Part shown: piece after piece, positions 9,892 to 59,734 of the stretch
How the letters are laid out: the number at the start of each line of letters is the position of its first letter
Position numbering within the stretch: position 1 is the first letter of the stretch
IMG/VR virus record: IMGVR_UViG_3300013120_000738
Coordinates: 163,726-227,725 of that record
Source of the DNA: a virus
DNA: 64,000 bases
Direction: 5' to 3' (one strand)
The notes under the pieces: model-generated
What the model saw: only the letters and a program-made list of their open reading frames with translations
The model's database searches: none
Told to the model about the DNA's origin: nothing
Translations under genes and position numbers: made by a program

Positions 9892-9894
9892 GGA

Positions 9895-10140: not shown

Positions 10141-10176
10141 GATTCTCTCCCTGTGAGCAAAAGATAGAAACCTCTG

Positions 10177-10380
10177 TCACTTGCTTGTGGCAGAGGAATC
10201 ATCGGGAGTGAAATTCGCAAGATCGGGATCGACGAGACGCGTGCACGCGCAGTGCTGGCTCTCGGTGGAGTTGGCGTCCTTGATGCGGCCGTCGATGATG
10301 AGAACGGAGCAGGGTGTGCCCCACGGCGTCCAGCCCTTGGCCCAAGTGATAGTAGGTTGCTGCTGTCCTTTTGATATCAT
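10177..10380 (-). CDS. Hypothetical protein, 67 residues
   Basis: ATG behind CAAGGAGGGATAGTC, stop TGA. CSVLIIDGR and HCACTRLVD suggest a small, possibly Cys-binding, mixed fold. No family recognised. Confidence 0.7.
   Translation of the reverse strand: MISKGQQQPTITWAKGWTPWGTPCSVLIIDGRIKDANSTESQHCACTRLVDPDLANFTPDDSSATSK
10186..10214 (-). promoter_or_regulatory. Bipartite promoter-like element (TGCCACA variant)
   Basis: TTTCAC then TGCCACA on the minus strand, 46 bp upstream of the start at 10140 and inside the 3' end of the gene at 10177. Confidence 0.6.
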
Positions 10381-10401
10381 GACTATCCCTCCTTGGCCCC
10401 T

Positions 10402-10430
10402 TGTGACCAAGCCCCGCTCAGGGGTAAATC
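10402..10430 (-). promoter_or_regulatory. Bipartite promoter-like element (GGTCACA variant)
   Basis: ATTTACC then GGTCACA on the minus strand, 22 bp upstream of the start at 10380. Confidence 0.65.
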
Positions 10431-10472
10431 CTAGGGATAGCCCTTTGATCGAGCGTTTAGAACAGCCTCCCT

Positions 10473-10910
10473 CTATTCTATCTTTGGGTAGCCGTCGTAG
10501 TCCTCGTAATCCGCCGGGAAGATGTCAGGACGTGCTTCTAGGAGATCATCCCACGTCGCGTCCGGATTCTCCTCGACGACCGGTACAACGGCAGCATCCC
10601 AAATCTCGTCGACCAACTCCTCGGTATCCATCCTAGTTAAAGGAGCAACGCCATCCATCAACATACCATGAAGCTCTTCACGAAGATCGCTAGCTTTCAT
10701 CCAGGTCAGACGCATAGCATGCCAACGACCAAGAATACAAGCGAGCTCGTGCTTGAGATCGTTGTCGACGACGCAATCCTTGAACTCTTTCGCAGATATG
10801 TCGTACTCTCTCACGATACGGAGCGGATACCGCTTGACCAGACCCCGAGCGTATTCGAGAATCTGGTCTTTGGTCACTTCGAGTTCAGATAGGAGTAATT
10901 TCTGCTTCAC
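10473..10910 (-). CDS. Hypothetical protein, 145 residues
   Basis: GTG at 10910 with GGAGGGCTGAC upstream, 1 bp after the TGA of the preceding gene; stop TAG. Mostly helical, acidic C-terminus. No family recognised; co-transcribed with 10912-11340. Confidence 0.7.
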   Translation of the reverse strand: MKQKLLLSELEVTKDQILEYARGLVKRYPLRIVREYDISAKEFKDCVVDNDLKHELACILGRWHAMRLTWMKASDLREELHGMLMDGVAPLTRMDTEELVDEIWDAAVVPVVEENPDATWDDLLEARPDIFPADYEDYDGYPKIE

Positions 10911-10911
10911 G

Positions 10912-11340
10912 TCAGCCCTCCACGGTCTGATAGAATTGCTCGGACTCGATCTCCTCTTCCTCGAGGCGTTTCTCAATGAGCTGCTGATCCGTGGCACCGG
11001 CCGCGATCGCCTTCCGGTACGCGGCGGCGGCCTGATACAGCCACTCCCACACTTTCAACTGTCCGGTCCGCTCATAAGGTGTGCTGACCTCTTCGTCGTC
11101 CAAGACGTCCTCGGCCGCGTACTGCAAAGCACTGAGCTCGGCCTGAGCCTTCTCCAAGTCCTCGTGCAGGTCCTGGATGGTCTTCTGAGCGTCCCGAAAC
11201 CAGAATTCGAGGGCACCGAAGGCAAAGACGTACTCGCTCGTTCCGAACTCGTCCTCGGCCTTCTTCGCCTTGCCGTCCTCGACAAGAGCGTCGGGATCGA
11301 CGGCCAAGACTTTCTTCATCCTCTCGCTATACCACACCAT
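10912..11340 (-). CDS. Helical/coiled-coil hypothetical protein
   Basis: 142 residues, ATG behind CAGGAGAGACGCG, stop TGA. Residues 50-85 (RDAQKTIQDLHEDLEKAQ) and the C-terminal third are strongly helical and probably coiled coil. Promoter-like element at 11383-11410. Confidence 0.75.
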   Translation of the reverse strand: MVWYSERMKKVLAVDPDALVEDGKAKKAEDEFGTSEYVFAFGALEFWFRDAQKTIQDLHEDLEKAQAELSALQYAAEDVLDDEEVSTPYERTGQLKVWEWLYQAAAAYRKAIAAGATDQQLIEKRLEEEEIESEQFYQTVEG

Positions 11341-11382
11341 CGCGTCTCTCCTGATAAGAGTGTAGAACCGCCATTGGTGTAC

Positions 11383-11410
11383 TGTGACAGACCGCGACGC
11401 GAAGTGAAAT
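11383..11410 (-). promoter_or_regulatory. Bipartite promoter-like element
   Basis: ATTTCAC then TGTCACA on the minus strand, 43 bp upstream of the start at 11340. Confidence 0.7.
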
Positions 11411-11440
11411 CAAGGGCGGCTCACCTCCCATGGGCCTGTT

Positions 11441-11455
11441 GCAGGTGCGACCTGC
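11441..11455. terminator. Short hairpin
   Basis: GCAGGT/ACCTGC with a 3-nt loop in the gap after the gene at 11488; weak terminator candidate. Confidence 0.35.
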
Positions 11456-11487
11456 TCACCACAACGAGTCTGTTGCCGCCATCGATC

Positions 11488-11766
11488 CTAGTCACGCGGG
11501 AAGAATTGATCCGCAATCCGCTGCAACAGGATCTCGTCGTCCGTCAAGATGAACAACGAGTGCACGTGGCCATCGTCGTAGAACGAAACGTGAGCCTCCT
11601 GATCGTCGGCCTTGACCAACATACCGCACAAGCCCTCGCTGTCGTCGACCTCAACGACCGTCAACTCGCCAGAGGCGGAATCGATGCATCCGAGCGGTAA
11701 CAGTGTCACATCGCAACCATCGGCTTCCAAACGCTCCACAATACCCAGAATCTTGTCGCTTGCCAT
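11488..11766 (-). CDS. Hypothetical protein, 92 residues
   Basis: ATG with AGGAG 9 nt upstream, stop TAG. Alternating beta strands and acidic loops (DVTLLPLGCIDSASGELTVV). No family recognised. Promoter-like element at 11816-11844. Confidence 0.7.
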   Translation of the reverse strand: MASDKILGIVERLEADGCDVTLLPLGCIDSASGELTVVEVDDSEGLCGMLVKADDQEAHVSFYDDGHVHSLFILTDDEILLQRIADQFFPRD

Positions 11767-11815
11767 ATCACCAAGCTCCTCGTGTTGAAGTAATACTACC
11801 GATCCTAAAGCCGCT

Positions 11816-11844
11816 TGTGACAGACAATACCCCGGATGGTAAAT
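11816..11844 (-). promoter_or_regulatory. Bipartite promoter-like element
   Basis: ATTTACC then TGTCACA on the minus strand, 50 bp upstream of the start at 11766. Confidence 0.7.
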
Positions 11845-12063
11845 CTAGCCGAATAATCCGCCACCGGTCGGCTGATTGTCCTTCGCGAATTGGCAGGCCT
11901 CCTCGTAGATGGCCGGGAGCTCATGGTCCTCGGAATAGCTCCAACCTTTCACAGAGACCGGGGTTAAACCACACTTGTTCGTGACACCGACATGTCTGAT
12001 GTCGGGCGTGACAATCACATCCAACTTACCCACTTTCGTCGAGTGAGGTATCCTTTCGCTCAT
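11845..12063 (-). CDS. Hypothetical protein, 72 residues
   Basis: ATG with AAGGGAATCGC upstream inside an imperfect TTCC/GGAA palindrome, stop TAG. Contains beta strands and a Gly-rich C-terminus. Overlaps the 3' end of the upstream gene by 38 bp. Confidence 0.65.
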   Translation of the reverse strand: MSERIPHSTKVGKLDVIVTPDIRHVGVTNKCGLTPVSVKGWSYSEDHELPAIYEEACQFAKDNQPTGGGLFG

Positions 12064-12625
12064 GCGATTCCCTTTCTGGAACAAGACCGTACTTTGCGAG
12101 TACATCGGTCATGTGTTGAATGTAATCGGCCCCGCTCACCGGCTTATCAAGATTGTAAAATTCATTCCCATCAACCAGGTCAAGAAATAACCCGTCGCGT
12201 GCATGGTGTACAATCTCAAGGAGTCCTTCCACGCTCACCGCTTCCACACGCCCCACGCGTACGCTCGCGATTTCCTCCATGGAAATCGGCTGGACATTAA
12301 CATGGTATCTATACTCCCCAGTACAAGCACTTCCGGCCATGTAACCGGAATTCTCTTCAAAGGAGAGACCAGAGGCATCCCAGTTACCATCGGACGACTC
12401 AAAATCAACCCAAGGATGTTGCGGTGTCCACTGTTTCGCAATCAACTTCTTGCAGTCATCAGCAGTACACCGGAGCCAAGCGTTGTCCTCATACGACTCA
12501 CCACAGAGCCAAAGAACAAGAGCTGCGATCGGCGTTTCAGCCTCAATAGTCTCGTCGGCCTGTAGAGTAGGATCCCCCATAGTATCCTCATGCCGAACCA
12601 AGCAGGTCAACCGCCATTTATTCAT
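12026..12625 (-). CDS. Hypothetical protein, 199 residues
   Basis: ATG at 12625, stop inside the next gene. Trp- and Cys-containing N-terminal half (LVLWLCGESYEDNAWLRC), acidic C-terminal half. Residues encoded at 12271-12285 (SMEEIA) lie in an intragenic palindrome. No family recognised. Confidence 0.7.
   Translation of the reverse strand: MNKWRLTCLVRHEDTMGDPTLQADETIEAETPIAALVLWLCGESYEDNAWLRCTADDCKKLIAKQWTPQHPWVDFESSDGNWDASGLSFEENSGYMAGSACTGEYRYHVNVQPISMEEIASVRVGRVEAVSVEGLLEIVHHARDGLFLDLVDGNEFYNLDKPVSGADYIQHMTDVLAKYGLVPERESHERKDTSLDESG
12271..12285. repeat. TTTCC-N5-GGAAA palindrome (intragenic)
   Basis: TTTCC, TCCAT, GGAAA inside the gene at 12026. Confidence 0.75.
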
Positions 12626-12800
12626 GCTTGTCCCCCCAACGCGTCTGAGTCCTTATGAATTCAACGATCGTGTCGGGGCAGTTCTCCAACTGCCCAACAA
12701 TCGTACGAAGGTCAGGCAAATCAAGGCCCTTCAAGTTCTCCTGTGCCGCCTTCAAGAGCTCAACAATTCCTGGTCGCCTCGGGTCGGAGCGTCCAACCAC
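12618..12800 (-). CDS. Hypothetical protein, up to 60 residues
   Basis: The frame is open from 12800, but the true start is uncertain: 48 bp overlap the upstream gene and a TTG near 12750 is an alternative. Helical (ELLKAAQENLKGLDLPDLR). Ends 8 bp inside the downstream gene. Confidence 0.55.
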   Translation of the reverse strand: MVGRSDPRRPGIVELLKAAQENLKGLDLPDLRTIVGQLENCPDTIVEFIRTQTRWGDKHE

Positions 12801-13213
12801 CCAACCATCGCCTCAAGAGCCGTACTGATGTCCGCCATCGCCTCAAGAGCCGTACTGATGTCCGCTCGAGACAGCAACTCGGTAACCCGCGACAAGTCCT
12901 CAAGATTCATCTTGCCGAGGATTTTCGTGATCTGGCGGGTGGTGTTCAGTCTCGCGGCGTACTCGTCGGCTGCGGTTTTGGAGAGGAATACCGTGTACTC
13001 ATCTTCGAGTTCCGGCTTGGTGCCACGAATGAGGCTGTAGAAAGCCTTGAGATCGTATTCGGCTGATGTCGCCGCACCTGTCTTCGGTTCGCAGACGACG
13101 TACAGAATGTCGACTGGGCGGGAGTATAATTCCTCCCAGTCGGCTACCGACTCGCGAAGTACTCGAAATTCGTCTGCGACTTTACGTTGGTCTCGGAGTT
13201 CTTGGGATAGCAT
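12752..13213 (-). CDS. Hypothetical protein with in-frame tandem duplication
   Basis: A 153-residue helical protein. A perfect 30-bp tandem repeat gives two consecutive copies of ADISTALEAM near residues 118-137. Stop TGA. The frame being preserved suggests a recent slippage duplication that is tolerated. No family recognised. Confidence 0.7.
   Translation of the reverse strand: MLSQELRDQRKVADEFRVLRESVADWEELYSRPVDILYVVCEPKTGAATSAEYDLKAFYSLIRGTKPELEDEYTVFLSKTAADEYAARLNTTRQITKILGKMNLEDLSRVTELLSRADISTALEAMADISTALEAMVGWLDAPTRGDQELLSS
12806..12865. repeat. Two perfect 30-bp tandem repeats
   Basis: 12806-12835 and 12836-12865 are identical and lie in frame within the gene at 12752. Confidence 0.95.
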
Positions 13214-13432
13214 TTACCTGCTCCTTAGGTGGGCTCGCTTTGCGAGTCTTTGGGCCTCGGGATCGTCAGGGATCATCATGAGGGTCGCGGCACAGCCCTT
13301 GCTTGCGGTGCCGATCATATAACCCGTTTGTTTTGTCGCTGTGCTACAGCTTACGCATGTGGTTGTCTCCGGCAGTGCTTCGAGTCGTGCGGCGGGGATC
13401 GGCTCCCCGCAGGCCTCGCAGTTTCTCTCCAT
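13214..13432 (-). CDS. DksA/TraR-type C4 zinc-finger protein
   Basis: 72 residues. The N-terminus CEACGEPIPAARLEALPETT followed by CVSC is the DksA/TraR signature C-x2-C-x17-C-x2-C with the conserved IP-x2-RL-x-A-x-P. The N-terminal coiled coil of DksA is absent, as in short TraR-like phage proteins that bind RNA polymerase near its secondary channel. ATG behind ACAGGAGAGAGCG, stop TAA. A transcription-modulating role is inferred from the family. Confidence 0.85.
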   Translation of the reverse strand: MERNCEACGEPIPAARLEALPETTTCVSCSTATKQTGYMIGTASKGCAATLMMIPDDPEAQRLAKRAHLRSR

Positions 13433-13467
13433 CGCTCTCTCCTGTGGATAGGGTTCTTCTGCCCGCT

Positions 13468-13496
13468 TGTGACAGGGGAATCCCCAGGAGTTAATA
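13468..13496 (-). promoter_or_regulatory. Bipartite promoter-like element
   Basis: ATTAAC then TGTCACA on the minus strand, 36 bp upstream of the DksA/TraR-like gene. Confidence 0.75.
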
Positions 13497-13787
13497 CTAG
13501 CTAAGGGCTATCTCTCGGATGTCGTTCTTAATGAATGTGAGGAAGATGTGGCTGTCATTACCCGCGTCGGCGTCGGTAACTTCCAGGTCTCCCCATGGGG
13601 CTTCCGCTTCCTTGATCACGATGTCGTCCGCCTCAGACCCGTCGAAAGTCCTCATAAAGTACGCGACGAGGAGCGGATCTCGCTCAATGGGATCATCGGG
13701 GACGAATAATAGGGTTTCGTCCGGCCTTGATGGGCAATTCTGGCACTCCACATAAGCAACAACGATCGCGAATTTGCCTTTTTGCAT
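13497..13787 (-). CDS. Hypothetical protein, 96 residues
   Basis: ATG behind TTGGAGACAAAAAC, stop TAG. Starts with a beta strand and a CQNC pair, then an acidic mixed region. No family recognised. Confidence 0.7.
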   Translation of the reverse strand: MQKGKFAIVVAYVECQNCPSRPDETLLFVPDDPIERDPLLVAYFMRTFDGSEADDIVIKEAEAPWGDLEVTDADAGNDSHIFLTFIKNDIREIALS

Positions 13788-13808
13788 GTTTTTGTCTCCA
13801 AAGAAACA

Positions 13809-13838
13809 CCGGGATGATGGGTGCACCCACCATCCCGG
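13809..13838. terminator. Strong hairpin terminator
   Basis: CCGGGATG pairs with CATCCCGG and the inner TGGGTGCACCCA is self-complementary, giving a nearly continuous stem upstream of the gene at 13497. Confidence 0.65.
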
Positions 13839-14140
13839 CTGGATAACCGATTCTCGATGTCCTAGACTACCGACTACTCATCGCCAGCGGCCAGCGGGGG
13901 CGTGCATCTGACGCAGCCCGCTCGGCGGAAATCAGGCTCCTAGCCAGTAGCGTCAACAAATCACCAAATCTCGATCATCCTATCCTCCATCTGTGAAAAG
14001 CGGCGGGGCGGCCCCTGGTACGTGCTGTGACGCCTCCCAGGAGCCGCCAGGGCGACGACCCCGGCCTAGGGAAAGCTTACTCTGTCACCCCCGCTCCGCC
14101 ACATGCGAATCTAAAGGGTTCCGACCATGTGCACGAGTAC
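13839..14140. other. About 300 bp without a convincing gene
   Basis: Only very short frames occur. There are GC-rich inverted segments and, near 14030, a minus-strand TCACAGC preceded by CTCCTGGG that resembles a compressed promoter-like element. It could encode a small RNA, but nothing is decisive. Confidence 0.4.
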
Positions 14141-14329
14141 TTACCCAAACCCACGCAAAGACGCCCAACCGGGCAGCAACGCTAGAGCCAAAGTGGAAGC
14201 ACGAAAAACCGTGCACACGGTCTGAACTCGAGTCTTACATCGCGGCGGCCGACTGGCGGGATCGTCGCAACAACCTTTGACGACTCCCGCCAGCGACGCA
14301 ACCGCGATAATGATAATCAGTCCGTGCAA
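14141..14329 (-). CDS. Small membrane or exported protein
   Basis: 62 residues from a TTG start with GAGGAGGGACAAG upstream. Residues 4-16 (LIIIIAVASLAGV) are hydrophobic, followed by CC and a basic region, so it may be an exported or lipid-anchored peptide. The promoter-like element at 14352 directly precedes it. Confidence 0.5.
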   Translation of the reverse strand: MHGLIIIIAVASLAGVVKGCCDDPASRPPRCKTRVQTVCTVFRASTLALALLPGWASLRGFG

Positions 14330-14351
14330 AACTTGTCCCTCCTCAACCCAC

Positions 14352-14380
14352 TGTGACCAACCATCCCCAGGGATTAAACT
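14352..14380 (-). promoter_or_regulatory. Bipartite promoter-like element (GGTCACA variant)
   Basis: GTTTAAT then GGTCACA on the minus strand, 22 bp upstream of the TTG start at 14329; overlaps the stop of the HNH gene. Confidence 0.65.
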
Positions 14381-14853
14381 CCTAAATCAGCTATCCGATG
14401 ATGATACGGACAAAGCAAAAGCGTTTTATCATGATCTAAAGGATCATCACCAAAATGATGCATATCAACCATTCGTCGGTCACCCTTTAAATCCAAATCA
14501 CAACCAGACGGATGTTGGCAGACAATACCAAATTTAGTTAAAAGCTCATCTTTCTTGATCATGTGCTCCCGACGATTTTTGGTTTGTCTCTTCTGCCTTT
14601 CCACACCAGTAAACTCGAAATCTCTCTTACACTTTTTGTCGCAGAAGTTATTCTTACACCGTTTGACTTGTGAAGGAATTCTCTCAAGTTCCTTCCCACA
14701 AGTTGCACAGCAAACCACAATCTTCCCGCTGCTACGTAAAGAATTACCATGTTTTGCCGTGCAACTAAGCGAACAGAATCTAGCTCTCCCTCGCTTTAAA
14801 TCTGCTGGTCTTGCGTCAAACTCGACGCCACATTGTTCACATTTTGTTTTCAT
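14374..14853 (-). CDS. HNH endonuclease with zinc fingers
   Basis: 159 residues. Two N-terminal Cys4 fingers (CEQCGVEF/CSLSC and CATCGKEL/CDKKC) precede a C-terminal HNH module with VDMHHFGDD and LCPYHH. ATG at 14853 is preferred over the open frame extending to 15006, because GGAGG precedes it inside a long hairpin (14854-14893). More AT-rich than its neighbours. Probably a mobile homing-type nuclease whose translation is controlled by that hairpin. Confidence 0.85.
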   Translation of the reverse strand: MKTKCEQCGVEFDARPADLKRGRARFCSLSCTAKHGNSLRSSGKIVVCCATCGKELERIPSQVKRCKNNFCDKKCKRDFEFTGVERQKRQTKNRREHMIKKDELLTKFGIVCQHPSGCDLDLKGDRRMVDMHHFGDDPLDHDKTLLLCPYHHRIADLGV

Positions 14854-14893
14854 CGCTTCCACCTCCACTTTATTTTTGATGGAAGTGGAAGCG
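14854..14893 (-). promoter_or_regulatory. Hairpin sequestering the HNH ribosome site
   Basis: A 14-bp stem with one G-U pair and a 12-nt loop ends exactly at the HNH ATG and contains the GGAGG in its 3' arm. In long transcripts it would block translation. Confidence 0.75.
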
Positions 14894-14971
14894 ACAACAG
14901 TGGAGATGTCGCCATCGAAGGCGAGTCCAGTGTCTTTGCTGACCAATCCCACAGGGTCTTGCTGAGGCAAT

Positions 14972-15328
14972 TTACTGCGGCGAGCTACCACGCTCAGATT
15001 CGTCACTCGGAGACCTGTCGATACCTGTCATCCCCTCCTCTTCGAAGCCAGCATCATCCGGCTCCCACTGAAACGAAAAATCCTCATACTCCCAGTCACC
15101 AGCAATACCACCGGCACGGGCTCGATCAACAACAGCGTGAATTTGAGGACCTAATTCCTCATCCCACTCAATACGCGGATCAAGCGACTGAATTTCTCGC
15201 CTCTTCATCGCCTCCATCGTCGCATCATAGTCCTCGAACCGGAAGGTCCCATAGACTGTGCGAGTGTCGCCGTTAGACGCTCGGTATCGCTTGGAGACGC
15301 GACGCTCGTAAGGGTTGTCGCTTGGCAC
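14972..15328 (-). CDS. Hypothetical protein, 118 residues
   Basis: GTG with GGAGGAAGTAA upstream, stop TAA. Mixed alpha/beta with an acidic C-terminal tail. Overlaps the 3' end of the upstream gene by 56 bp. No family recognised. Confidence 0.7.
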   Translation of the reverse strand: MPSDNPYERRVSKRYRASNGDTRTVYGTFRFEDYDATMEAMKRREIQSLDPRIEWDEELGPQIHAVVDRARAGGIAGDWEYEDFSFQWEPDDAGFEEEGMTGIDRSPSDESERGSSPQ

Positions 15329-15539
15329 TTACTTCCTCCTTCCAACGCTTAATGCAATCCAAGCAAGCACCCTCGACGTCGGGATCGATCCAGAACACAA
15401 ATTCGAGCTCCTCATCGTCCGTCACCAGTGCTTGCGGGATTGTGCCGTGACAATCCGGATATAGGTGCCAGTAGCCGTCCAAGCCGACGTATCGGCCATC
15501 CTCAACGATCTTCTGGCTCAAACTACCCATCCAAGACAT
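15273..15539 (-). CDS. Hypothetical protein, 88 residues
   Basis: ATG behind AGGAGGACAAGAGC, stop TAA inside the downstream gene. Contains LYPDCHG and CLDCIKRW, a possible metal-binding pair. Promoter-like element at 15561-15588. Confidence 0.7.
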   Translation of the reverse strand: MSWMGSLSQKIVEDGRYVGLDGYWHLYPDCHGTIPQALVTDDEELEFVFWIDPDVEGACLDCIKRWKEEVSAKRQPLRASRLQAIPSV

Positions 15540-15560
15540 GCTCTTGTCCTCCTGCCCACC

Positions 15561-15588
15561 TGTGACGAACCCACCGTCAGAGGTAAAT
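15561..15588 (-). promoter_or_regulatory. Bipartite promoter-like element (CGTCACA variant)
   Basis: ATTTACC then CGTCACA on the minus strand, 22 bp upstream of the start at 15539. Confidence 0.65.
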
Positions 15589-15788
15589 TAACGATAGTTC
15601 GCCGAACAGCCACCAATACTGTCGATGAACTGGTGCTCTACACCGCCATTCCGAGCAGTGATAACCGCATTACTGACCGATCCCGGCCGCGACGGACGAG
15701 CCAAAAAACGACACTTCGGACGACACTTCGGACACTCCGAATGTTCTTTAAAGTCAAACTGTGTCCCACAATGCTGACACTCGATCAT
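15588..15788 (-). CDS. Zinc-ribbon protein
   Basis: 66 residues with CQHCGTQF and CPKCRPKC about 15 residues apart, a four-Cys ribbon, then a basic tail. ATG behind AAGGAGAATTATC, stop TAA. Confidence 0.75.
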   Translation of the reverse strand: MIECQHCGTQFDFKEHSECPKCRPKCRFLARPSRPGSVSNAVITARNGGVEHQFIDSIGGCSANYR

Positions 15789-15836
15789 GATAATTCTCCT
15801 TTTGAAGGGACGCCAAGGTTGGCTATCTGACCGCTG

Positions 15837-15852
15837 CCACAAGTACTTGTGG
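15837..15852. repeat. Perfect 16-bp palindrome
   Basis: CCACAAGTACTTGTGG lies in the leader of the gene at 15588; it could be an operator for a dimeric regulator. Confidence 0.7.
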
Positions 15853-15927
15853 CCAGTGCTAAAGAGCTGGCCCGCTCCCTGCCACCTTTATCGCGCGTTA
15901 CCAACCCTGGCGTCCGCTCAAAAGAAT

Positions 15928-15951
15928 GGCCGGGGGCTTTCGCCCCCGGCC
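15928..15951. terminator. GC hairpin terminator
   Basis: GGCCGGGGGC pairs with GCCCCCGGCC just after the stop of the DUF932-like gene. Confidence 0.75.
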
Positions 15952-15966
15952 CAGAACATCACACCC

Positions 15967-17193
15967 TTAGTTCTGTGCGTGATCCGAACCCGTCAGGCCC
16001 GCACCCATCTTCGCCGTCACCAAGAAGTCCGAGAAATCCTCGAACTTCTCCTTGGTGCCCTCCATGTCGTACTCGCCGCTGATCAGCGAGCCAACCCACG
16101 CGTTCAGGCGTCGGGAACCCTCCGTGCTGGCGTAATGCGTCGCCACTTCCGTCGCGAAGTTGATGCTGTCGTAGACCGTCGCCTTGGTCGGGAGGGTCTT
16201 CTGTCGCTTGTGCGACAAAGCATCGAGATTGGCCAGCCCATACAGGTGACTCGTGTCCCCCGTCATCGTGTGAAAGGCCTTGATAACCGGCGAGCCGATC
16301 ACATCCGTATCCTCGCCCAACGAGGACTGTGCACGACCTTCCGGCGTCGACAACGCCCAACCCTGGAGTCCAGGGGACTTCTTCAAGGACGGCTCGTCCA
16401 CGCCGACGATCTGCTTGTTGGCGTGCAGCTTCACGAGCAACTGGTAGAGCATGTTGCTCTCGTAGACCGACGCCCAGGACGTCGTAGCCGCTTCCATCCG
16501 CTGGCGGAGAGCCGCGTAGCCCTCGTCGTTGCCGAAACCATCCAAGGCCCGTGTGATCGCCGGAGTGACATCCTCCCCACCCTTGCCGATGCTCAACTGG
16601 CTGCGGAACGCCTTGGCGAATCCGATCATGCCATTCGAGCAGATCTGGCGAAGCAGCGAGAGGTAGATGTTCGGGCTCCCGTACCCGTCGACGGGCGTCC
16701 TCATGAGAAAACGATTCGAGAACATGTCGCCCGCGACGTCGAAGTTATTCGAGCCAGTTCGGGGCGTGTGGGTGGACTCCACGATGCCGTCGTGGTAGCC
16801 GATCTCCTGCCCATGGTATCGTTCGAGCAGATCCACGATGTCGTCGAAGCCCACGACCGGCCGCGTCGGCATGCTGGCGGCCCGCAAAGTCGTCTTGCCG
16901 GTCTGCTGATCCTTCTCGATGCAGACACGCAAGCGATCGTTCTGCTCCCGCTCCGCGATGCGGTTGAAAACCTCATCGTGATCGAAGTACTTGAAGCAGT
17001 TCGAACCGATGCCGAAACGAGCGAAGAGACTCGTCCAGAACCGGTCGGACGGCTGGTGCTTCTCGTCCTGCACGACCACGCCCGTCACGGTCTTGCGACC
17101 GGACTTCGCGTCTGTCTCCTGTTCCACGACGATGTCATTGATCGGCGTGATCCGGTAGTCGAACGAGTAGCGTTCGGTGAGAGAAGTAGTCAT
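15967..17193 (-). CDS. DUF932-like phage/plasmid protein
   Basis: 408 residues. The layout, with an N-terminal conserved region, a central FRTPV/NGM-type block (residues about 150-200: DVAGDMFSNRFLMRTPVDGYG, interrupted here) and ICSNGMIGFAK, resembles DUF932 proteins carried by many phages and plasmids. Their biochemical role is not established; association with replication or recombination has been suggested from context. ATG at 17193 with GGAGG upstream; promoter-like element at 17255. Confidence 0.6.
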   Translation of the reverse strand: MTTSLTERYSFDYRITPINDIVVEQETDAKSGRKTVTGVVVQDEKHQPSDRFWTSLFARFGIGSNCFKYFDHDEVFNRIAEREQNDRLRVCIEKDQQTGKTTLRAASMPTRPVVGFDDIVDLLERYHGQEIGYHDGIVESTHTPRTGSNNFDVAGDMFSNRFLMRTPVDGYGSPNIYLSLLRQICSNGMIGFAKAFRSQLSIGKGGEDVTPAITRALDGFGNDEGYAALRQRMEAATTSWASVYESNMLYQLLVKLHANKQIVGVDEPSLKKSPGLQGWALSTPEGRAQSSLGEDTDVIGSPVIKAFHTMTGDTSHLYGLANLDALSHKRQKTLPTKATVYDSINFATEVATHYASTEGSRRLNAWVGSLISGEYDMEGTKEKFEDFSDFLVTAKMGAGLTGSDHAQN

Positions 17194-17254
17194 AGGTCTG
17201 AAACCTCCGAAAAAGGGTGTGAAAAATGTGGGGGATTGCCCCCGTCCAGTATCC

Positions 17255-17283
17255 TGTGACCAACCCATACTAGGCGGTTAAAT
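17255..17283 (-). promoter_or_regulatory. Bipartite promoter-like element (GGTCACA variant)
   Basis: ATTTAAC then GGTCACA on the minus strand, about 60 bp upstream of the start at 17193. Confidence 0.7.
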
Positions 17284-17291
17284 CCAGGGGA

Positions 17292-17366
17292 CTATTGGGC
17301 GATTATCGCGGCCACCAGTCGTACAAACGCTAGGACTAATCCCAAATGCCAAAACGGCCAAACCAT
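17292..17366 (-). CDS. 24-residue membrane peptide
   Basis: ATG at 17366, stop TAG. Nearly the whole peptide is hydrophobic (FWHLGLVLAFVRLVAAII), as in the tiny membrane peptides at 876 and 14141. A degenerate promoter-like sequence is at about 17426-17447. Ribosome site is weak. Confidence 0.4.
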   Translation of the reverse strand: MVWPFWHLGLVLAFVRLVAAIIAQ

Positions 17367-17434
17367 AATGTTCGTACCTATGGGTCACCAACCGATAATC
17401 CCCCATACCCCTTTCAAATACGTTCGGACAGAAT

Positions 17435-17455
17435 CCCCAGGATTATCCCCTGGGG
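17435..17455. terminator. Short GC hairpin
   Basis: CCCCAG pairs with CTGGGG right after the stop of the gene at 17457. Confidence 0.5.
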
Positions 17456-17456
17456 C

Positions 17457-17765
17457 TCACCCCAAATTCTCCTCGATCGCGATGAAAATGTCTTCGAGAT
17501 CGAACCCATCGTTGATCTGGCAATCATCCTCCCAGACGTCGTCCGGACTCTCGACCGGATGAGGACCATAAAAGAAGGTCTCGTCGCCAGCATTCCTCGC
17601 CACAAAAAAGCTGGCAAGGACTACCCCATCTTCCTCAAGATGATAAAGAAGGGCATGCCGAGGATTCTCGCTGAGGTACTCGAACAGCTCGTCGAGAGAC
17701 CTTTGCTGGCGATTATCCTCGAACACGCCACTATCTTCGCCAAACGAACACAAATACGTTGTCAC
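17457..17765 (-). CDS. Acidic hypothetical protein, 102 residues
   Basis: GTG at 17765 with AAGGAGCAAGACA upstream. Acidic mixed fold (RSLDELFEYLSENP, then HLEEDGVVLASFFVA). No family recognised. Confidence 0.7.
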   Translation of the reverse strand: MTTYLCSFGEDSGVFEDNRQQRSLDELFEYLSENPRHALLYHLEEDGVVLASFFVARNAGDETFFYGPHPVESPDDVWEDDCQINDGFDLEDIFIAIEENLG

Positions 17766-17789
17766 TGTCTTGCTCCTTGATAGAAGAAA

Positions 17790-17824
17790 CTGGCGACGCC
17801 CAAGACCACCCTGGACGCCGCCAG
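17790..17824. terminator. Hairpin after the helicase gene
   Basis: CTGGCGACG pairs imperfectly with CGCCGCCAG in the gap between the helicase and the next gene. Confidence 0.4.
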
Positions 17825-17842
17825 CCCCAAGCACAGGATACG

Positions 17843-19009
17843 CTAGAAGCGAAGCCGCCTCGCCTTCTTGTCCTTCCGGTTGAGAATGAACTGAGGCATC
17901 TCAACCGGTGTGGTAGCGATAGCAATCCTCGCCTGATTGTTGATCTCCTGCAGATGCGGATTCACCCGCAAAGTCCGCCACTCGCTCTCCTGCCAGAGAT
18001 ACTGCTGCTCCGGCATCGCAGTCCGAATCATCGGCCAGCGAGTATTCTTCGACTGAACCACCTGCTTGTGGCCCAATCCTGAATACTGCCGGAACACCCG
18101 ACCACTCATTTGCATCGTCGGACCCTTCCCCGAATCCCTCACCCACGCCGTAGCCAACGAAGGCTCATCAAAACCCTCCGTCAAGACCATGCAATTAATG
18201 AGACAAGGAATGTCGCCAGCCCGAAACGCCTGAAGTTTGTCCTCAGTCACCTTCGGCTCTCCACCGCGTACGACGTCGCTGACGATCCCTCGCTTCTGGA
18301 AGAGGTTGTGTAGCTCAAAACACTGCTCCAACTCCAGAAAGTAGAAGATCGACTTGCCCCAGCGATCCGGCTCAGCACAATAGAAATCGCAAATGGTCTC
18401 CGGATCCCACTTCGGGATCGAGAAATGGTGGTACTTGCTGAGGAAGCCATCCTGAATCAACTGATGGATACCCGCGTCCTTGATGACCTTCGAGAAGCAA
18501 AGCTTCATGCTGTCGGTCCGAAAGGGCGTCGCAGTCAGCCCAAGAACGAAGTCCGGCTCAATCGTGTTGTGCAAGTGAGTGCACGAGCTTGCGGCGTCGT
18601 GTTGTGCTTCGTCTATTATCATGAGGACCTTCTTACCGGCCTGTTTGGCGGCCAGAAGCTTCTCAGGATAACGATCGAACATCGACGTCGGGTGAAAATC
18701 CTGTAGGTCGATACCCTTCTGTGTGTTCTCGCGGCCAACCTGTCCAAGAAGGTTCCGCCGCATCGCCACCCAGCCCGTAACAAGATCAGGGAACTGAGAG
18801 CGGAGAACTTTCGCCAGAACGAGCCCCATGATGGACTTGCCGCTGCCGGTGGGACTCTCCACCATCACCGACTGCACAGCCGGTTCGATCTCGTCGGCAC
18901 CGTTCACATACTTGCCAGTGAACATGTCCACAGCTTTACCAACGATCCGACGCTGGTAGGGGCGTGGCTCCACACCTGTGCCGCTAATCGCGGCCTCGAT
19001 CCGTTTCAT
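17843..19009 (-). CDS. SF2 DNA/RNA helicase (UvsW/DEAD-like)
   Basis: 388 residues. RPYQRRIV near residue 17 is a Q-motif-like start; SPTGSGKSI is Walker A; MIIDEAQHD is the DEAQ-type Walker B; LGLTATPFR is motif III; a C-terminal RecA domain contains LTEGFDEPS and the QMSGRVFRQ arginine-finger motif VI. The family unwinds or remodels nucleic acid with ATP and supports recombination-dependent replication in phages. ATG at 19009 behind AGGAGACAGCT; own promoter-like element at 19056. Complete. Confidence 0.92.
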   Translation of the reverse strand: MKRIEAAISGTGVEPRPYQRRIVGKAVDMFTGKYVNGADEIEPAVQSVMVESPTGSGKSIMGLVLAKVLRSQFPDLVTGWVAMRRNLLGQVGRENTQKGIDLQDFHPTSMFDRYPEKLLAAKQAGKKVLMIIDEAQHDAASSCTHLHNTIEPDFVLGLTATPFRTDSMKLCFSKVIKDAGIHQLIQDGFLSKYHHFSIPKWDPETICDFYCAEPDRWGKSIFYFLELEQCFELHNLFQKRGIVSDVVRGGEPKVTEDKLQAFRAGDIPCLINCMVLTEGFDEPSLATAWVRDSGKGPTMQMSGRVFRQYSGLGHKQVVQSKNTRWPMIRTAMPEQQYLWQESEWRTLRVNPHLQEINNQARIAIATTPVEMPQFILNRKDKKARRLRF

Positions 19010-19055
19010 AGCTGTCTCCTGTGCTTGGAATACACGAACTTATCCTGTGTACTCC

Positions 19056-19085
19056 TGTGACGAGCAACCCCCCAGGAGGTAAATC
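19056..19085 (-). promoter_or_regulatory. Bipartite promoter-like element (CGTCACA variant)
   Basis: ATTTACC then CGTCACA on the minus strand, 47 bp upstream of the helicase start. Confidence 0.65.
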
Positions 19086-19272
19086 AAGCAGCCCAAGCCC
19101 AACGAATACTAGTCGTCGCGTCCTTACCATTCGAAGGATGATATACCGTATACCAACCCTTCACAACAGCGACAACAATGAAACCCCTGTACGGACCTTC
19201 CTCGATCGTGTCGTCGACCTTGTACCTAGCTCCAGACAAAATGATGTCCCCCCAATTCCTCGATACGGTCAT
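19084..19272 (-). CDS. Hypothetical protein, about 62 residues
   Basis: Stop TGA in the promoter-like element. The ATG at 19272 overlaps the upstream gene by 47 bp; a later ATT/TTG behind GGGGGGACATC is a possible alternative. Beta-rich (GFIVVAVVKGWYTVYHP), SH3-like in pattern. No family recognised. Confidence 0.6.
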   Translation of the reverse strand: MTVSRNWGDIILSGARYKVDDTIEEGPYRGFIVVAVVKGWYTVYHPSNGKDATTSIRWAWAA

Positions 19273-19630
19273 GGATGGCCTTCACCCATTCGTAATCATT
19301 GGCCGTCCCAACATACGGAACGGCATCCCGAAAGATGATCAGACGACGCAACTCCTCATCGAAAGCAGGTACCACAAACGAAGCTCCCCAGTTATAGACG
19401 AGCTCCCCGTCCCACTCCCAAATGACGCAGCCCCGATCATCCTCCTTGTACAAGTTGATCTTGCCGAGCCAACATGTACCGTGATGTTCCTTCATCGCGG
19501 CAATGAGTTCCCGGTTAGTGTCATTGAGGACATCATCGGCCTCCGCTGGACAAAATCCACCACCCTGGCGGACAGAGTTCATGAAGGCCCGAAGATGCCT
19601 CTTCTTTGCCGCTGCCAACGTCGTTGTCAT
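19226..19630 (-). CDS. Hypothetical protein, 134 residues
   Basis: ATG with AGGGGACGACTGAC upstream, stop TAG. Mixed alpha/beta; contains KINLYKEDDRGCVIWEWDGE. No family recognised. Confidence 0.7.
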   Translation of the reverse strand: MTTTLAAAKKRHLRAFMNSVRQGGGFCPAEADDVLNDTNRELIAAMKEHHGTCWLGKINLYKEDDRGCVIWEWDGELVYNWGASFVVPAFDEELRRLIIFRDAVPYVGTANDYEWVKAIHDRIEELGGHHFVWS

Positions 19631-19631
19631 G

Positions 19632-19751
19632 TCAGTCGTCCCCTAAACCATAATCGTCGATATCTGAAGTGAAAGACCCAGTATGGCTCCTATGCGGACA
19701 ATCCAAACAATCGTTAATCACAATAACCTTCGCTCGTGGCGACAATACCAT
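19632..19751 (-). CDS. 39-residue Cys/His peptide
   Basis: ATG behind GGGGAGGACATT, stop TGA one base before the next start. Contains CLDCPHRSH, a compact metal-binding pattern. Preceded by a promoter-like element at 19770. Confidence 0.6.
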   Translation of the reverse strand: MVLSPRAKVIVINDCLDCPHRSHTGSFTSDIDDYGLGDD

Positions 19752-19769
19752 AATGTCCTCCCCGAACCC

Positions 19770-19797
19770 TGTGACAGACAATCCCCAGGAGTTAAGT
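19770..19797 (-). promoter_or_regulatory. Bipartite promoter-like element
   Basis: CTTAAC then TGTCACA on the minus strand, 19 bp upstream of the start at 19751. Confidence 0.75.
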
Positions 19798-20064
19798 CCT
19801 CGGAACTACCCCATACGCTCTCTTGCGATACAAATCCTTATACCGAAGCGTCGCAAAAGTCTGAGCGATCCCGTCCCGCAACCGACGCTTCATCCGATTC
19901 GCCTGGCCCACAGTCAAAATCGCCTCAGAAAAATCACCACTACAAATATTGCGATCCTTCGTAAGTTCATCAATACCCTCATTGACCAGATCCATCACAT
20001 CATCAAAAAGATGCTCCCGGATCTCCTCTACCTGTTGCATCGTCACTGGCTTTATTCTTGGCAC
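19792..20064 (-). CDS. Helical hypothetical protein, 90 residues
   Basis: GTG with GGAGGATATT upstream, stop TAA. Helical throughout (QQVEEIREHLFDDVMDLVNE). Overlaps the upstream gene by 13 bp. No family recognised. Confidence 0.7.
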   Translation of the reverse strand: MPRIKPVTMQQVEEIREHLFDDVMDLVNEGIDELTKDRNICSGDFSEAILTVGQANRMKRRLRDGIAQTFATLRYKDLYRKRAYGVVPRT

Positions 20065-53881: not shown

Positions 53882-54229
53882 TTATCCTCCTATTAAAGAG
53901 AGTTTACTGAGAATTCGCCTGTTGTCAAACAACGGCTCGGTAGCGATTGCTGTTATCCCAATACCGAGATCGGAATCATTGAAAGTGGCATATTTTATGC
54001 CTTTGAAATCCAATTTATCAATAATACACGATAAATCGGGAGCCTCCGCCAGCACTAGATGAGGGTGGTGGGCCTGGATTAATCCAGCAATAGCGGCCTC
54101 CAGACTAGCATGAATCGCTTGTACAATTTTTTGCTGTGACGATAAATTAGAATGAACAATAACATAACAATGTCCACCATATGGGCTGTTTACTTTTTGT
54201 TCAAATTTATTGCGGGGTGGTGCAGCCAT
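53882..54229 (-). CDS. PTH2-like peptidyl-tRNA hydrolase fold protein
   Basis: 115 residues. YVIVHSNLSSQQKIVQAIHA, then HHPHLVLAEAP and YATFNDSDLGIGITAIATEP follow the PTH2 order (N-terminal strand and helix, conserved acidic and Gly/Thr-Ala end). PTH2 enzymes release peptides from tRNA; phage homologues are often uncharacterised. Its ATG overlaps head-to-head with the HNH ATG at 54228. Confidence 0.7.
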   Translation of the reverse strand: MAAPPRNKFEQKVNSPYGGHCYVIVHSNLSSQQKIVQAIHASLEAAIAGLIQAHHPHLVLAEAPDLSCIIDKLDFKGIKYATFNDSDLGIGITAIATEPLFDNRRILSKLSLIGG

Positions 54230-54836
54230 GTCTAAATCCAAGTATCAAAAACGAAAAGAAGCCGGTTTGTGTACCGTATGTGGAACAAAAAAACCCGCTA
54301 AAGGTAAATTCAGTTGTGAATCTTGTCTAAATAAATCACGGAAAAGAAATAAAGAATACAAGAAACGATATAAAGAAGATAATGTATGTAGAAATTGCGG
54401 AAAAGAAACAGACAAATATTTATGTGATAAGTGTAGAAAAGCAAAAAACAAAAGATCGAGTAGAAATAGAAAAGAAAGGATAAAGCGTGGTTTATGTTCG
54501 TGTGGACGAAAGCCTAATGAAGGATATAAAAGATGTGTTGTCTGTATCAAAGGAATGAAGCAATTAAGAATAAAGAATAGAGATAAAGTATTCGAAGCAT
54601 ATGGTGGCCCAATATGTAATTGTTGTGGTGAGACAGAATTACTGTTTCTAACTATTGACCACATCAACAACGATGGGGCAACACACAGAAAAGAACTTGG
54701 TGGGAGAAACTTTGGCGGATCTAGAATGCACAAATGGCTAATCGATAACGATTTTCCGCCTGGGTTCCAGATGTTATGTGCTAACTGCCAATTGGGTAAG
54801 CACTTAAATGGCGGAATTTGCCCACATAAATCATAA
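54228..54836 (+). CDS. HNH endonuclease, free-standing
   Basis: 202 residues, AT-rich. Three zinc-knuckle pairs (CTVCGTKK/CESC, CRNCGK/CDKC, CSCGRK/CVVC) precede an HNH: FLTIDHINNDGATHRKE and MLCANCQLGKH. Shares the IDH-N-DGA-HR and final knuckle with the gene at 24608. Inserted between the PTH2 start and the tRNA. Confidence 0.85.
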   Translation: MSKSKYQKRKEAGLCTVCGTKKPAKGKFSCESCLNKSRKRNKEYKKRYKEDNVCRNCGKETDKYLCDKCRKAKNKRSSRNRKERIKRGLCSCGRKPNEGYKRCVVCIKGMKQLRIKNRDKVFEAYGGPICNCCGETELLFLTIDHINNDGATHRKELGGRNFGGSRMHKWLIDNDFPPGFQMLCANCQLGKHLNGGICPHKS

Positions 54837-54902
54837 TTATGTTGTCACGTCATCTCATTGATCCTTACATGATTTTTGCTCTAGATTTTAAATACGTCAG
54901 AG

Positions 54903-54976
54903 CGCCCCCGGCAGGATTCGAACCTGCAACACACTGTTTTGAAGACAGCCGAGCTAACCAATTGCCCCACGGGGGC
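54903..54976 (-). tRNA. tRNA with anticodon UCA (opal suppressor, Trp-like)
   Basis: Complete cloverleaf of 74 nt: acceptor GCCCCCG/CGGGGGC, D-stem GGGC/GCTC with loop AATTGGTTA, anticodon stem GCTGT/ACAGT with loop CTTCAAA, 5-nt variable region, T-stem GCAGG/CCTGC with loop TTCGAAT. Positions 34-36 are TCA, so it reads UGA. Short variable arm excludes selenocysteine tRNA. G73 and overall shape suit tryptophan. CCA is not encoded. Confidence 0.88.
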
Positions 54977-54992: not shown

Positions 54993-55676
54993 ATGCTACA
55001 ACATCAAAATAAATTCATCATTGTCGCAGGTAATAGAACAGGATCATCATGGCTCGTACACCTATTAGGACAGCACCCAGAAGTGATATGCTTCGACGAA
55101 GTCCTAAATGACACCACGAATTCAGAAGTTGGTACCAGCATTCGCCTCCAACACCTATACTTCAGCCAAACTAGTATGAGAAGAAGAGCACAAGTTAATA
55201 GGGTAGCTGGTTTTAAAATTATATATTGGCGTCTAACCGAACAAGTACACAGATTTATAGAAGACCACAACGTTCTAGTAATTCACCTGTTAAGACGCAA
55301 TCTAGTAGACTGCATGGTATCCCAACTTGTAGCAAAACAAACTAAAATCTGGCACGTCTATGATAATCAAGATTATGAGGGTCGACTAGCTGAATATAAT
55401 GCTACCAGAATACATATCAAACCATCTAAAATGCACACTTGCTTTAGAAAAAGAGAACAAGCAATAAATGATCTTGAAGGCCGACACAGAACATTATTAT
55501 TCTATTATGAGGACCTACCTAGCATAGATGATATTCATGATTTCTTAGGAATAGAAAGAGTCGATGTTGGCGGTGCTATATTAAAGCAACGCAGAGCACC
55601 AAAAAATGTGATAGTTACGAACTATGAAGAACTAGAAAAAGAATTCAGAGATACTAAGTATCAATGGATGTTCTAA
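54993..55676 (+). CDS. Sulfotransferase
   Basis: 227 residues. FIIVAGNRTGSSWLVHLLGQ is the 5' PAPS-binding loop and VIHLLRRNLVDCMVSQL the 3'-phosphate motif of Stf0/carbohydrate sulfotransferases. It transfers sulfate from PAPS to a sugar or other hydroxyl. On the plus strand right after the tRNA, without a clear ribosome site. Its 3' end overlaps a convergent gene by 23 bp. Confidence 0.8.
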   Translation: MLQHQNKFIIVAGNRTGSSWLVHLLGQHPEVICFDEVLNDTTNSEVGTSIRLQHLYFSQTSMRRRAQVNRVAGFKIIYWRLTEQVHRFIEDHNVLVIHLLRRNLVDCMVSQLVAKQTKIWHVYDNQDYEGRLAEYNATRIHIKPSKMHTCFRKREQAINDLEGRHRTLLFYYEDLPSIDDIHDFLGIERVDVGGAILKQRRAPKNVIVTNYEELEKEFRDTKYQWMF

Positions 55677-57140: not shown

Positions 57141-57417
57141 TGTAGGCCTCTTCTAAATGCTCAATAGAATGTAGGACTTCCTCTATAGTTTTCATAGGTA
57201 CCTTAGGTCTTGTACTGTGATGGATAAGAATTACTATAGTTCTGCGCTTTAGTGACCCGTCTAGTAATCCCTTCATGCCCCTACTGATACTTCTAATAGC
57301 ATCAGCTAACTTCTCAACATCAGGAGCTTTTTGACCTTTTGGCTTTGATGGGCGAGGAGTAGTAGGTGGATTAGGATTTTGCCCACCTTTGCTCGGATGC
57401 ACAGCTGGTTTTGTCAT
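57115..57417 (-). CDS. Hypothetical protein, 100 residues
   Basis: ATGA overlap with RfbB. A Pro/Lys-rich N-terminus, then helical (DVEKLADAIRSISRGMKGLL). No family recognised. Confidence 0.65.
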   Translation of the reverse strand: MTKPAVHPSKGGQNPNPPTTPRPSKPKGQKAPDVEKLADAIRSISRGMKGLLDGSLKRRTIVILIHHSTRPKVPMKTIEEVLHSIEHLEEAYIDENNTSS

Positions 57418-58406
57418 CTCCAGGCCTCGTTGTTTTTATACCAGTCAATACATCCATCGAGGCCTTCACCAAGTTCTATTTTAGGTGTCCAACCTGTAGC
57501 ACGCAGCTTGTCACAATTAAGAGCATATCTCCTATCATGTCCAGGTCTGATATCGAAGTCGTCAATGTGTTTAATGAGGTCAGCCGACTTACCAAGGCGA
57601 GCAAGAATCCTGGTAGCCAATTCGTTATTAGTTAATTCTTGACTACCAGCAACATGCCAAATCTCACCCCCAGGCAATTCCTCTCGCTTTTTCAATATAT
57701 GAAGTATAGCCTCAACATGGTCTTGAACGTGTAACCACTGGCGGACATGCTCTCCATCACCGTAAACTGGTAATGATTCGTCATTTAATGCCTTGCCAAC
57801 AAAGACTGGGATAGCTTTTTGAGGATGCTGGTAAGGGCCATAATTATTCTCAGTCCTTGTGACTGCAGTCCACATATGAAATGTGTGGAAGTATGAGATT
57901 GCTAGAGCATCAGCGCCAGCTTTGGATGCCGAGTATGGGTTTCTTGGGCATAATGGTGCATCTTCCTTATACGCACCTTCCAGGATCTGGCCATAGACCT
58001 CATCGGTTGATACATTAATAAATGCTCCAACCCTTTGTCTACGGGCTTCTTCCAGCATGTTAGCCGTACCAAGTGTATTGGCTTCGATAAATGGCCTGGG
58101 ATCTCTGATGGAATGGTCCACAAAGGTACGAGCTGCGAAATGCACTATAGCATCTACGTGCTCACAAAGTCCAGAGATATCACCATTTATGTCACCGTAA
58201 GTGATTCTCAGAAATCCTTCTTCACTAGCACGACGTATCCATGGTGAATCTTCAAGTCTCGGACGAGTCCATTCCGTCGTATCCCTAGCAAATGCCGTCA
58301 CCTTTGAGATATCAGTACCGATTTCATTGTACTTCATGCTCAAAACGTGTCTCACGAAAGCACTACCAATAAAACCGCGCGCTCCAGTTACGAGGACGTG
58401 GGACAT
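57414..58406 (-). CDS. rfbB: dTDP-glucose 4,6-dehydratase-like SDR enzyme
   Basis: 330 residues. VTGARGFIGSAF is the NAD-binding loop; VSTDEVYG with the catalytic Thr-Asp-Glu, NPYSASKAGAD with the YxxxK pair and RTENNYGPYQHPQKAIP are the RfbB/RmlB signatures. It makes dTDP-4-keto-6-deoxyglucose from the RfbA product. ATG behind GGAGGAAGAA; overlaps the end of an HNH gene. Confidence 0.9.
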   Translation of the reverse strand: MSHVLVTGARGFIGSAFVRHVLSMKYNEIGTDISKVTAFARDTTEWTRPRLEDSPWIRRASEEGFLRITYGDINGDISGLCEHVDAIVHFAARTFVDHSIRDPRPFIEANTLGTANMLEEARRQRVGAFINVSTDEVYGQILEGAYKEDAPLCPRNPYSASKAGADALAISYFHTFHMWTAVTRTENNYGPYQHPQKAIPVFVGKALNDESLPVYGDGEHVRQWLHVQDHVEAILHILKKREELPGGEIWHVAGSQELTNNELATRILARLGKSADLIKHIDDFDIRPGHDRRYALNCDKLRATGWTPKIELGEGLDGCIDWYKNNEAWR

Positions 58407-58954
58407 TTCTTCCTCCAATTAGCCACATGTTGGCACATTTGTATAAAATGATCGTTACCAAATCGTTGTTTCATCATATTGATGTCTTTGTGAACCCATT
58501 GAACATTACCGACAACATAACCAGATTCACTATTAATCCGATCTAATGACGCAGTAAAATCACCAGCACAAAAGCTAGTATGATTTTTAGGGAATGTTAG
58601 AAGTAAGCCGCTCAGAGCACACAATTTCTTTTGTTTAATAAATAAGTCCCAGAGATATTCGATTTTCAAATCAAATGGAATTTTACGGCGCTTGGCATGT
58701 CGTTTCATCTTAGCCACTATTGTGGTGCTTAATTCACCGACACCAAGCCAATAGGGACTCTTCTCTCTCCGATATTGTGTTAATAAGCAACCACAACTTT
58801 TAACACCTCTCCCTTTCTTTTTCAAATTACTTCTGGCTACCTCAGTCGTATTGCCACATTCACATTGACATAACCAATACGTTGATTTGTGAGATTCTGG
58901 CCTGTCTGGTGCTCTCCCAATAACTGTCAGCTTACCAAATTCTTCACCAATCAT
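58388..58954 (-). CDS. HNH endonuclease (AP2/NUMOD-like)
   Basis: 188 residues. N-terminal EFGKLTVIGRAPDR and CQCECGNTTEVARSNL zinc-like segment, then ASLDRINSESGYVVGNVQW, the end of an HNH core. It is related to the gene at 60168, which has the same EFGKLTVIG and SLDRI-GNV-WVHK blocks. It lies between RfbA and RfbB in the same orientation, so it has invaded the sugar operon. Confidence 0.8.
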   Translation of the reverse strand: MIGEEFGKLTVIGRAPDRPESHKSTYWLCQCECGNTTEVARSNLKKKGRGVKSCGCLLTQYRREKSPYWLGVGELSTTIVAKMKRHAKRRKIPFDLKIEYLWDLFIKQKKLCALSGLLLTFPKNHTSFCAGDFTASLDRINSESGYVVGNVQWVHKDINMMKQRFGNDHFIQMCQHVANWRKKCPTSS

Positions 58955-58984
58955 GATGTTCTCCCAATAAACCTACGAGTTTGT

Positions 58985-59734
58985 TTACTCTAGGTTTGAT
59001 TGGGATCGTATTTTATCTGTTGCTTCTAAGAATTGTGGAACTGATTGACCAAGATCGAACCACTCGCCAACAAGGCGAGTATAATGGAGCTGATCCCTCT
59101 GTAGATATGTATAAAGCAAGTCCGTTACTTCATACTCGCCACGAGCAGATGGTTGTAATCTGTTAATTCTAAGCCAAACGTTATGATCAAATAAGTATAA
59201 ACCAGTAACCCCTAAATTACTTATTGGTTTTTCAGGTTTCTCTACAATGCTAACTGGTTTATCATCTTCTAATACAAGAACTCCCATGCTTGATGGATCT
59301 TCCGTTTCCGTTACCCAAACATGAGCACCGGAACCTTGATTTGCCTCAAAAGACTCTATATCTCTAGCAATAATAGGTTGATCTTCAGCAGAAAAAATAT
59401 TATCTGCTAACATAACAAGCACAGACTCACCATCATCAACGAAAGGGTACCCATACTTGATAGCGTCAGCAATTCCTCTAGGATCTTTCTGAACAGCAAG
59501 ATAAGTAATAAATCTATTATATGGTGGCTCACCACAACTAATCAAACGACCGTAACCAGCCATGTCCTCAGGAGTAGTAACTATAAGAACTGAATCTATA
59601 TGAAGTTTATCAAATAACGCAAAAGCATGCCCTATCATGGGCTGCTTACCAACAGGCAACAAATGCTTATTGACTCCAAGAGTCAATGGGAATAATCTAC
59701 TACCTGTTCCGCCAGCTAATATGATGCCTTTCAT
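58985..59734 (-). CDS. rfbA: Glucose-1-phosphate thymidylyltransferase-like enzyme
   Basis: 249 residues. IILAGGTGSRLFPLTLGVNK is the nucleotide-binding signature, then LLPVGKQPMIG, MLADNIF and VEKPEKPIS. Makes dTDP-glucose from dTTP and glucose-1-phosphate, feeding RfbB. The family is usually about 290 residues, so this one is a short form, as in many phage versions. No clear ribosome site. Confidence 0.88.
   Translation of the reverse strand: MKGIILAGGTGSRLFPLTLGVNKHLLPVGKQPMIGHAFALFDKLHIDSVLIVTTPEDMAGYGRLISCGEPPYNRFITYLAVQKDPRGIADAIKYGYPFVDDGESVLVMLADNIFSAEDQPIIARDIESFEANQGSGAHVWVTETEDPSSMGVLVLEDDKPVSIVEKPEKPISNLGVTGLYLFDHNVWLRINRLQPSARGEYEVTDLLYTYLQRDQLHYTRLVGEWFDLGQSVPQFLEATDKIRSQSNLE

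Follow-up and report, generated by a model that had tools for sequence, protein, structure and literature searches.

The 64,000-nucleotide stretch of viral DNA analysed here (hereafter the window: bases 163,726-227,725, the right-hand 64 kb of the 227,725-base virus record IMGVR_UViG_3300013120_000738) carries a real transfer RNA (tRNA) gene with anticodon UCA, in a record where UGA is a stop throughout and code 4 recoding was not encountered. With moderate confidence, we take its product to be a tryptophan (Trp)-type tRNA that would decode UGG by wobble and leak at UGA, without reassignment of the codon. The gene and its anticodon lie as follows:

54903..54976, minus strand: class I tRNA gene, anticodon UCA (ARAGORN, Rfam RF00005, fold, stem pairs)
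54940..54942, minus strand: anticodon UCA (sequence)

An earlier note, made from the letters of the window, had placed a complete cloverleaf with anticodon UCA, a short variable arm and G73 at exactly this position, leaving the strand unstated, and had proposed running ARAGORN on the locus. That program duly reports a tRNA at 54902-54976 (-) with anticodon tca; Rfam RF00005 matches over its full length at 54903-54976 (-) with 63.9 bits (E 1.5e-11), and the minimum-energy fold is a cloverleaf. Written as RNA, the gene reads GCCCCCG-UG-GGGC-AAUUGGUUA-GCUC-G-GCUGU-CUUCAAA-ACAGU-GUGUU-GCAGG-UUCGAAU-CCUGC-CGGGGGC-G, with stems of 7+4+5+5 bp in which 21 of 21 pairs form, Watson-Crick or G-U; the D stem (GGGC/GCUC, with one G-U) is unusual but intact. 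The loops are CUUCAAA (anticodon), UUCGAAU (T) and GUGUU (variable, 5 nucleotides), and the ends comprise G1:C72, a discriminator G73 and no encoded CCA. A cloverleaf of this quality is far beyond chance. ARAGORN's label, ‘tRNA-SeC’, derives from the anticodon alone; the 5-nucleotide variable loop, the 7+5 acceptor/T arrangement and the 4-bp D stem rule that identity out, as the earlier note had held. An anticodon UCA reads UGA, and wobble at U34 lets UGG be read too.

The gene ends of the record, taken from a simple gene caller, comprise 130 TAA, 117 TGA and 83 TAG (330 genes). Within the window, 40 of the 108 genes end in TGA, and four-base ATGA/GTGA overlaps number 10 there and 26 elsewhere in the record, whilst Trp is encoded by TGG (1,152 codons); the earlier statements that more than 30 genes here end in TGA, many in tight overlaps, and that Trp is written TGG, are thus in good order.

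Comparison with relatives gives the most direct view of how TGA is used. Three IMG/VR contigs qualify: their DnaE-like polymerase is 66-68% identical to that of the record, and they are collinear with its bases from about 15 to 130 kb. Alignments of their open reading frames (ORFs) to the record were retained where they ran in frame with called genes. Across the whole record, not one interior TGA turned up in the 50,607 residues so aligned, which come from 102 genes, and the stops seen in the alignments all either precede a start or mark a natural gene end. In the gene ending at 57,467, some 12 residues align weakly past its TGA (identity about 50% over the whole alignment), a loose similarity that is best read as C-terminal variation. 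Moreover, 24 TGA-ended genes co-terminate with a relative's ORF, and for 17 of these a relative uses TAA or TAG instead.

A hidden Markov coding model that was ‘naive’ to stops, treating all 64 codons alike and refitted to four regions, gave interior TAA/TAG/TGA counts of 10/10/3, 4/9/9, 26/48/25 and 12/9/7, with an excess of TGA in no region. In-frame extensions are shorter after TGA than after TAA or TAG, and neither the gene for the tail sheath nor an ORF of 3,128 residues contains an in-frame TGA. No gene of the release-factor family RF1/RF2 (PF00472) or for a Trp/Tyr-type synthetase (PF00579) was found in the record, where the controls matched. A phage-encoded release factor or Trp-tRNA synthetase is an accessory to code 4 recoding, not an obligatory part of it.

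These results bear on whether some genes, for instance late ones, might be written with in-frame TGA for Trp, a switch of genetic code that the earlier note had entertained. The UCA tRNA itself speaks for such a switch, as do phages known to make one, described in parts of PMC7886860 and PMC12386605; set against them are the aligned residues free of interior TGA, the lack of a TGA excess, the short extensions and the missing release-factor and synthetase genes, and we regard a switch as very improbable indeed. The note had itself proposed looking for in-frame TGA, structural genes included, and for a phage release factor, and had named a genome free of in-frame TGA as the outcome that would count against its suggestion; neither was found in the record, and for this record, a linear fragment, the suggestion does not survive.

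Two same-frame genes at record 151265-152785, separated by TGA plus 12 bases, with a DNA methyltransferase as the second, form a possible readthrough pair; similar same-frame pairs also follow TAA and TAG. When TGA-readthrough fusions were compared with PHROGs, a match was found only for one pair, in its C-terminal methyltransferase half, and no fusion family was found.

Partial readthrough of UGA would predict that genes ending in TGA are followed by backup stops, defined here as a second in-frame stop within five codons. Such stops follow 48 of 104 TGA genes (46%), as against 53 of 188 TAA/TAG genes (28%; p=0.003); the excess persists in genes that the next gene does not overlap (p=0.026), and in core and accessory regions alike (p=0.024 and 0.032). 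In two of the relatives, the corresponding counts for TGA and other genes are 15/45 vs 19/73 and 17/44 vs 20/54, with no significant excess (32/89 vs 39/127 when the relatives without a detected tRNA are pooled). As a sign of UGA leak, the excess is suggestive only.

A more speculative reading has the tRNA turned against the host: the phage's own UGA stops would be shielded by backups, whilst the tRNA would drive readthrough of host UGA stops and so weaken host or defence proteins. An anti-host role for suppressor tRNAs has been suggested for recoding phages, in a part of PMC7886860, but for the present record we think it distinctly improbable.

Trp is the favoured, though not proved, amino acid. 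In a comparison with the anticodon masked, the nearest of 316 tRNAs in fetched loci is a phage tRNA-Trp(CCA) (score 94), followed by a Streptomyces phage tRNA-Arg(UCU) (91), in a set that is biased in that neighbours were fetched by BLAST with the UCA tRNA. A less biased test took genomic tRNAs of any anticodon whose variable loop and T arm are identical to those here: ARAGORN called the 14 matching stretches as six Trp(CCA), all bacterial (Omnitrophota and myxobacterial genomes), six Asn (five archaeal, one bacterial) and one Met, with one uncalled and no Arg. In the anticodon loop, position 34 is the sole difference from the CUCCAAA of Trp, U31:A39 is the same as in Trp, and G73 is a Trp identity element. 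Against E. coli tRNAs, the matches listed include only weak, partial ones to tRNA-Arg. A search of IMG/VR for close copies of the anticodon and T arms found none, nor did one of GTDB genomes for a C/U34 form of them.

The same comparisons raise the possibility of an opal suppressor that carries Arg, its ancestor being a tRNA-Arg(UCU) altered at position 36, or that carries some other amino acid; the leaky readthrough would be the same. Most annotated BLAST neighbours are indeed UCU tRNAs of Streptomyces phages, mostly named tRNA-Arg (the best 79% over 72 nucleotides), and C35 is common to the UCA tRNA and Arg tRNAs. However, A20 is an Arg identity element and position 20 here is U, the discriminator is G and not the A of the Streptomyces phage Arg tRNAs, and in its variable loop, T arm and U31:A39 the tRNA resembles Trp; we consider charging with Arg or another such amino acid unlikely, even though the tRNA-SUP-TCA of phage Lera has also been called Trp or Arg, in a portion of PMC12386605. 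The earlier description of a ‘tryptophan-type opal suppressor’ is probably right as to type (G73, anticodon arm, variable loop and T arm), albeit with a margin over Arg(UCU) of just 94 to 91.

A further possibility is that the tRNA is a tRNA-Trp variant whose altered anticodon loop would go uncut by host anticodon nucleases whilst its U34, which is able to read UGG, would still do so by wobble, with the UGA leak as a side effect. Phage tRNAs with anticodon-loop changes that evade tRNA-cutting defences have been proposed (PMC10264068), but the main text of that paper names neither Trp nor suppressors, and we consider this improbable.

Synthesising these findings, we suggest that the tRNA most likely arose from a tRNA-Trp(CCA) by a C34 to U34 change and that it would be charged with Trp by the host tryptophanyl-tRNA synthetase. 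Its U34 would allow UGG to be read, adding to Trp decoding, and at UGA the tRNA would be a weak competitor of host release factor 2 (RF2), such that host and phage messages might undergo low-level UGA readthrough whilst the codon is not reassigned. Phage genes retain UGA as a stop and seem leak-tolerant, another in-frame stop often following at a short distance. We infer charging, expression, wobble decoding and readthrough alike.

Several points weigh against this model. A comparison of backup stops between the record's own TGA genes and those of its relatives is not significant (p=0.19), the backups of TGA genes that the next gene does not overlap show no avoidance of TGA, and UGA is an intrinsically leaky stop anyway; the low-level readthrough raised in the earlier note stands as a candidate that the backup stops support weakly. 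In addition, the tRNA-Arg(UCU) body is nearly as similar as that of tRNA-Trp(CCA), E. coli tRNA-Trp has A1:U72 where G1:C72 stands here, and neither a clear sigma-70-type promoter nor a terminator was found at the tRNA.

The immediate neighbours of the tRNA, both on the opposite strand, are:

54228..54836, plus strand: HNH endonuclease gene (the longer ORF 54210-54836 matched PHROG 2255, E 3.1e-7)
54993..55676, plus strand: sulfotransferase-like gene (Pfam PF00685, E 3.4e-7; guanine-plus-cytosine (GC) content 37.3%)

The endonuclease ORF is low in GC (36.5%) and the gene at 54228-54836 has no Pfam match; the sulfotransferase-like gene, for which no relatives were found in IMG/VR, starts 17 nucleotides from the 5' end of the tRNA. 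The position of the tRNA between two lower-GC genes on the opposite strand, one of them for an HNH endonuclease, points to its arrival in a small cassette, which raises the question of whether the tRNA is a mere bystander, or a ‘pre-emergent’ suppressor, that arrived horizontally with these genes and has little or no function, a later change of code being possible. We view this as possible, if doubtful. It would sit well with the largely accessory character of the window, which has few matches in the relatives, with the relatives' lack of detectable tRNAs and with the lack of a clear promoter, and ‘suppressor pre-emergence’ without recoding has been described for crAss-like phages in a part of PMC7886860. 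On the other side, every stem pair is intact, unlike those of a decaying gene, and the excess of backup stops could be a sign that leak at UGA carries a functional cost.

Judged by its genes (tail sheath, baseplate hub, DnaE-like DNA polymerase, NAD-dependent ligase and primase), the record, a linear fragment, is that of a jumbo myophage. Terminase families found no match in it; T4-type capsid families likewise, where the control also matched nowhere and the result is uninformative. Besides the UCA tRNA, it has tRNAs for Met(cat) and Pro(tgg), three in all; none was found in the three relatives, which are fragments. Two genes (record 70263-72968 and 74314-75741), with three small ORFs between, together make up the DnaE-like polymerase, one matching positions 42-439 of PHROG 405 and the other 440-1043. 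This split is also kept in relative G001, while in G002 and G003 the alignment of the C-terminal gene stops at residue 535, which would fit an inserted element there, an intron or intein for example. The 3,128-residue ORF (record 113062-122448) shows what look like von Willebrand A and trypsin-like stretches by eye in translation, and its first 2,313 residues match no PHROG. Window 57414-59734 holds sugar-nucleotide genes (an epimerase and a nucleotidyltransferase), relatives of which sit together on contig G004.

At the other end of the window, the GC content of bases 1-28000 is about 54%, as opposed to about 41% elsewhere in the record; the coding signal is weaker, genes are less dense (34-81% per 4-kb bin as far as 20 kb) and family matches are few besides an SF2 helicase at 17843-19009; no near match to bases 1-20000 was found among annotated phages. 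This part could be foreign or chimeric sequence. Recoding within it, considered on account of its higher code-4 ORF coverage, was rejected: the best ORFs are TGA-free, and TAA and TAG are equally frequent in the stop-naive model.

Phage suppressor tRNAs without recoding are a known loose end, variously seen as steps toward a code change, decoding aids or anti-host tools. The record does not present a new genetic code; rather, it is a clean case, in which the absence of recoding was tested genome-wide against relatives without a detected tRNA, and it yields a testable prediction, that of backup stops behind UGA.

Such tRNAs are not rare. A class I UCA tRNA pattern matched 98 stretches in IMG/VR, and ARAGORN called 40 tca tRNAs in the fetched loci, two of them the record's own in two overlapping sequences; by a rough by-eye judgement of ORF coverage, only about eight loci clearly gain from reading TGA as sense over a TAG control, so UCA tRNAs without obvious recoding appear common. 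One, on a 490,380-bp IMG/VR contig, has another sequence, with CCA encoded and 46 positions matching those of the record's tRNA. In one survey, 11 of 73 code-4 phages carry a Sup-TCA tRNA (PMC11210395). Opal-recoding Zeta crAss-like phages such as Lera have, in the portions of PMC12386605 and PMC7886860 drawn on here, a UCA tRNA of isotype Trp or Arg, as in the record, but genes with in-frame TGA, which the record lacks. Closer in outcome are the crAss-like suppressors without recoding, termed pre-emergent in a section of PMC7886860 and, for some, apparently inactive in one of PMC12386605; stops soon trailed by another are described in these sections, although the phage group differs and the worked examples are TAA or TAG suppressors. 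A sound UCA tRNA alongside UGA stops is a combination already known in other phages, and the direct precedent is the Agrobacterium jumbo phage Atu_ph07 (MF403008), which, like the record, couples a UCA suppressor tRNA with UGA stops, 267 of them, though it carries 33 tRNAs to the record's three (PMC6102473).
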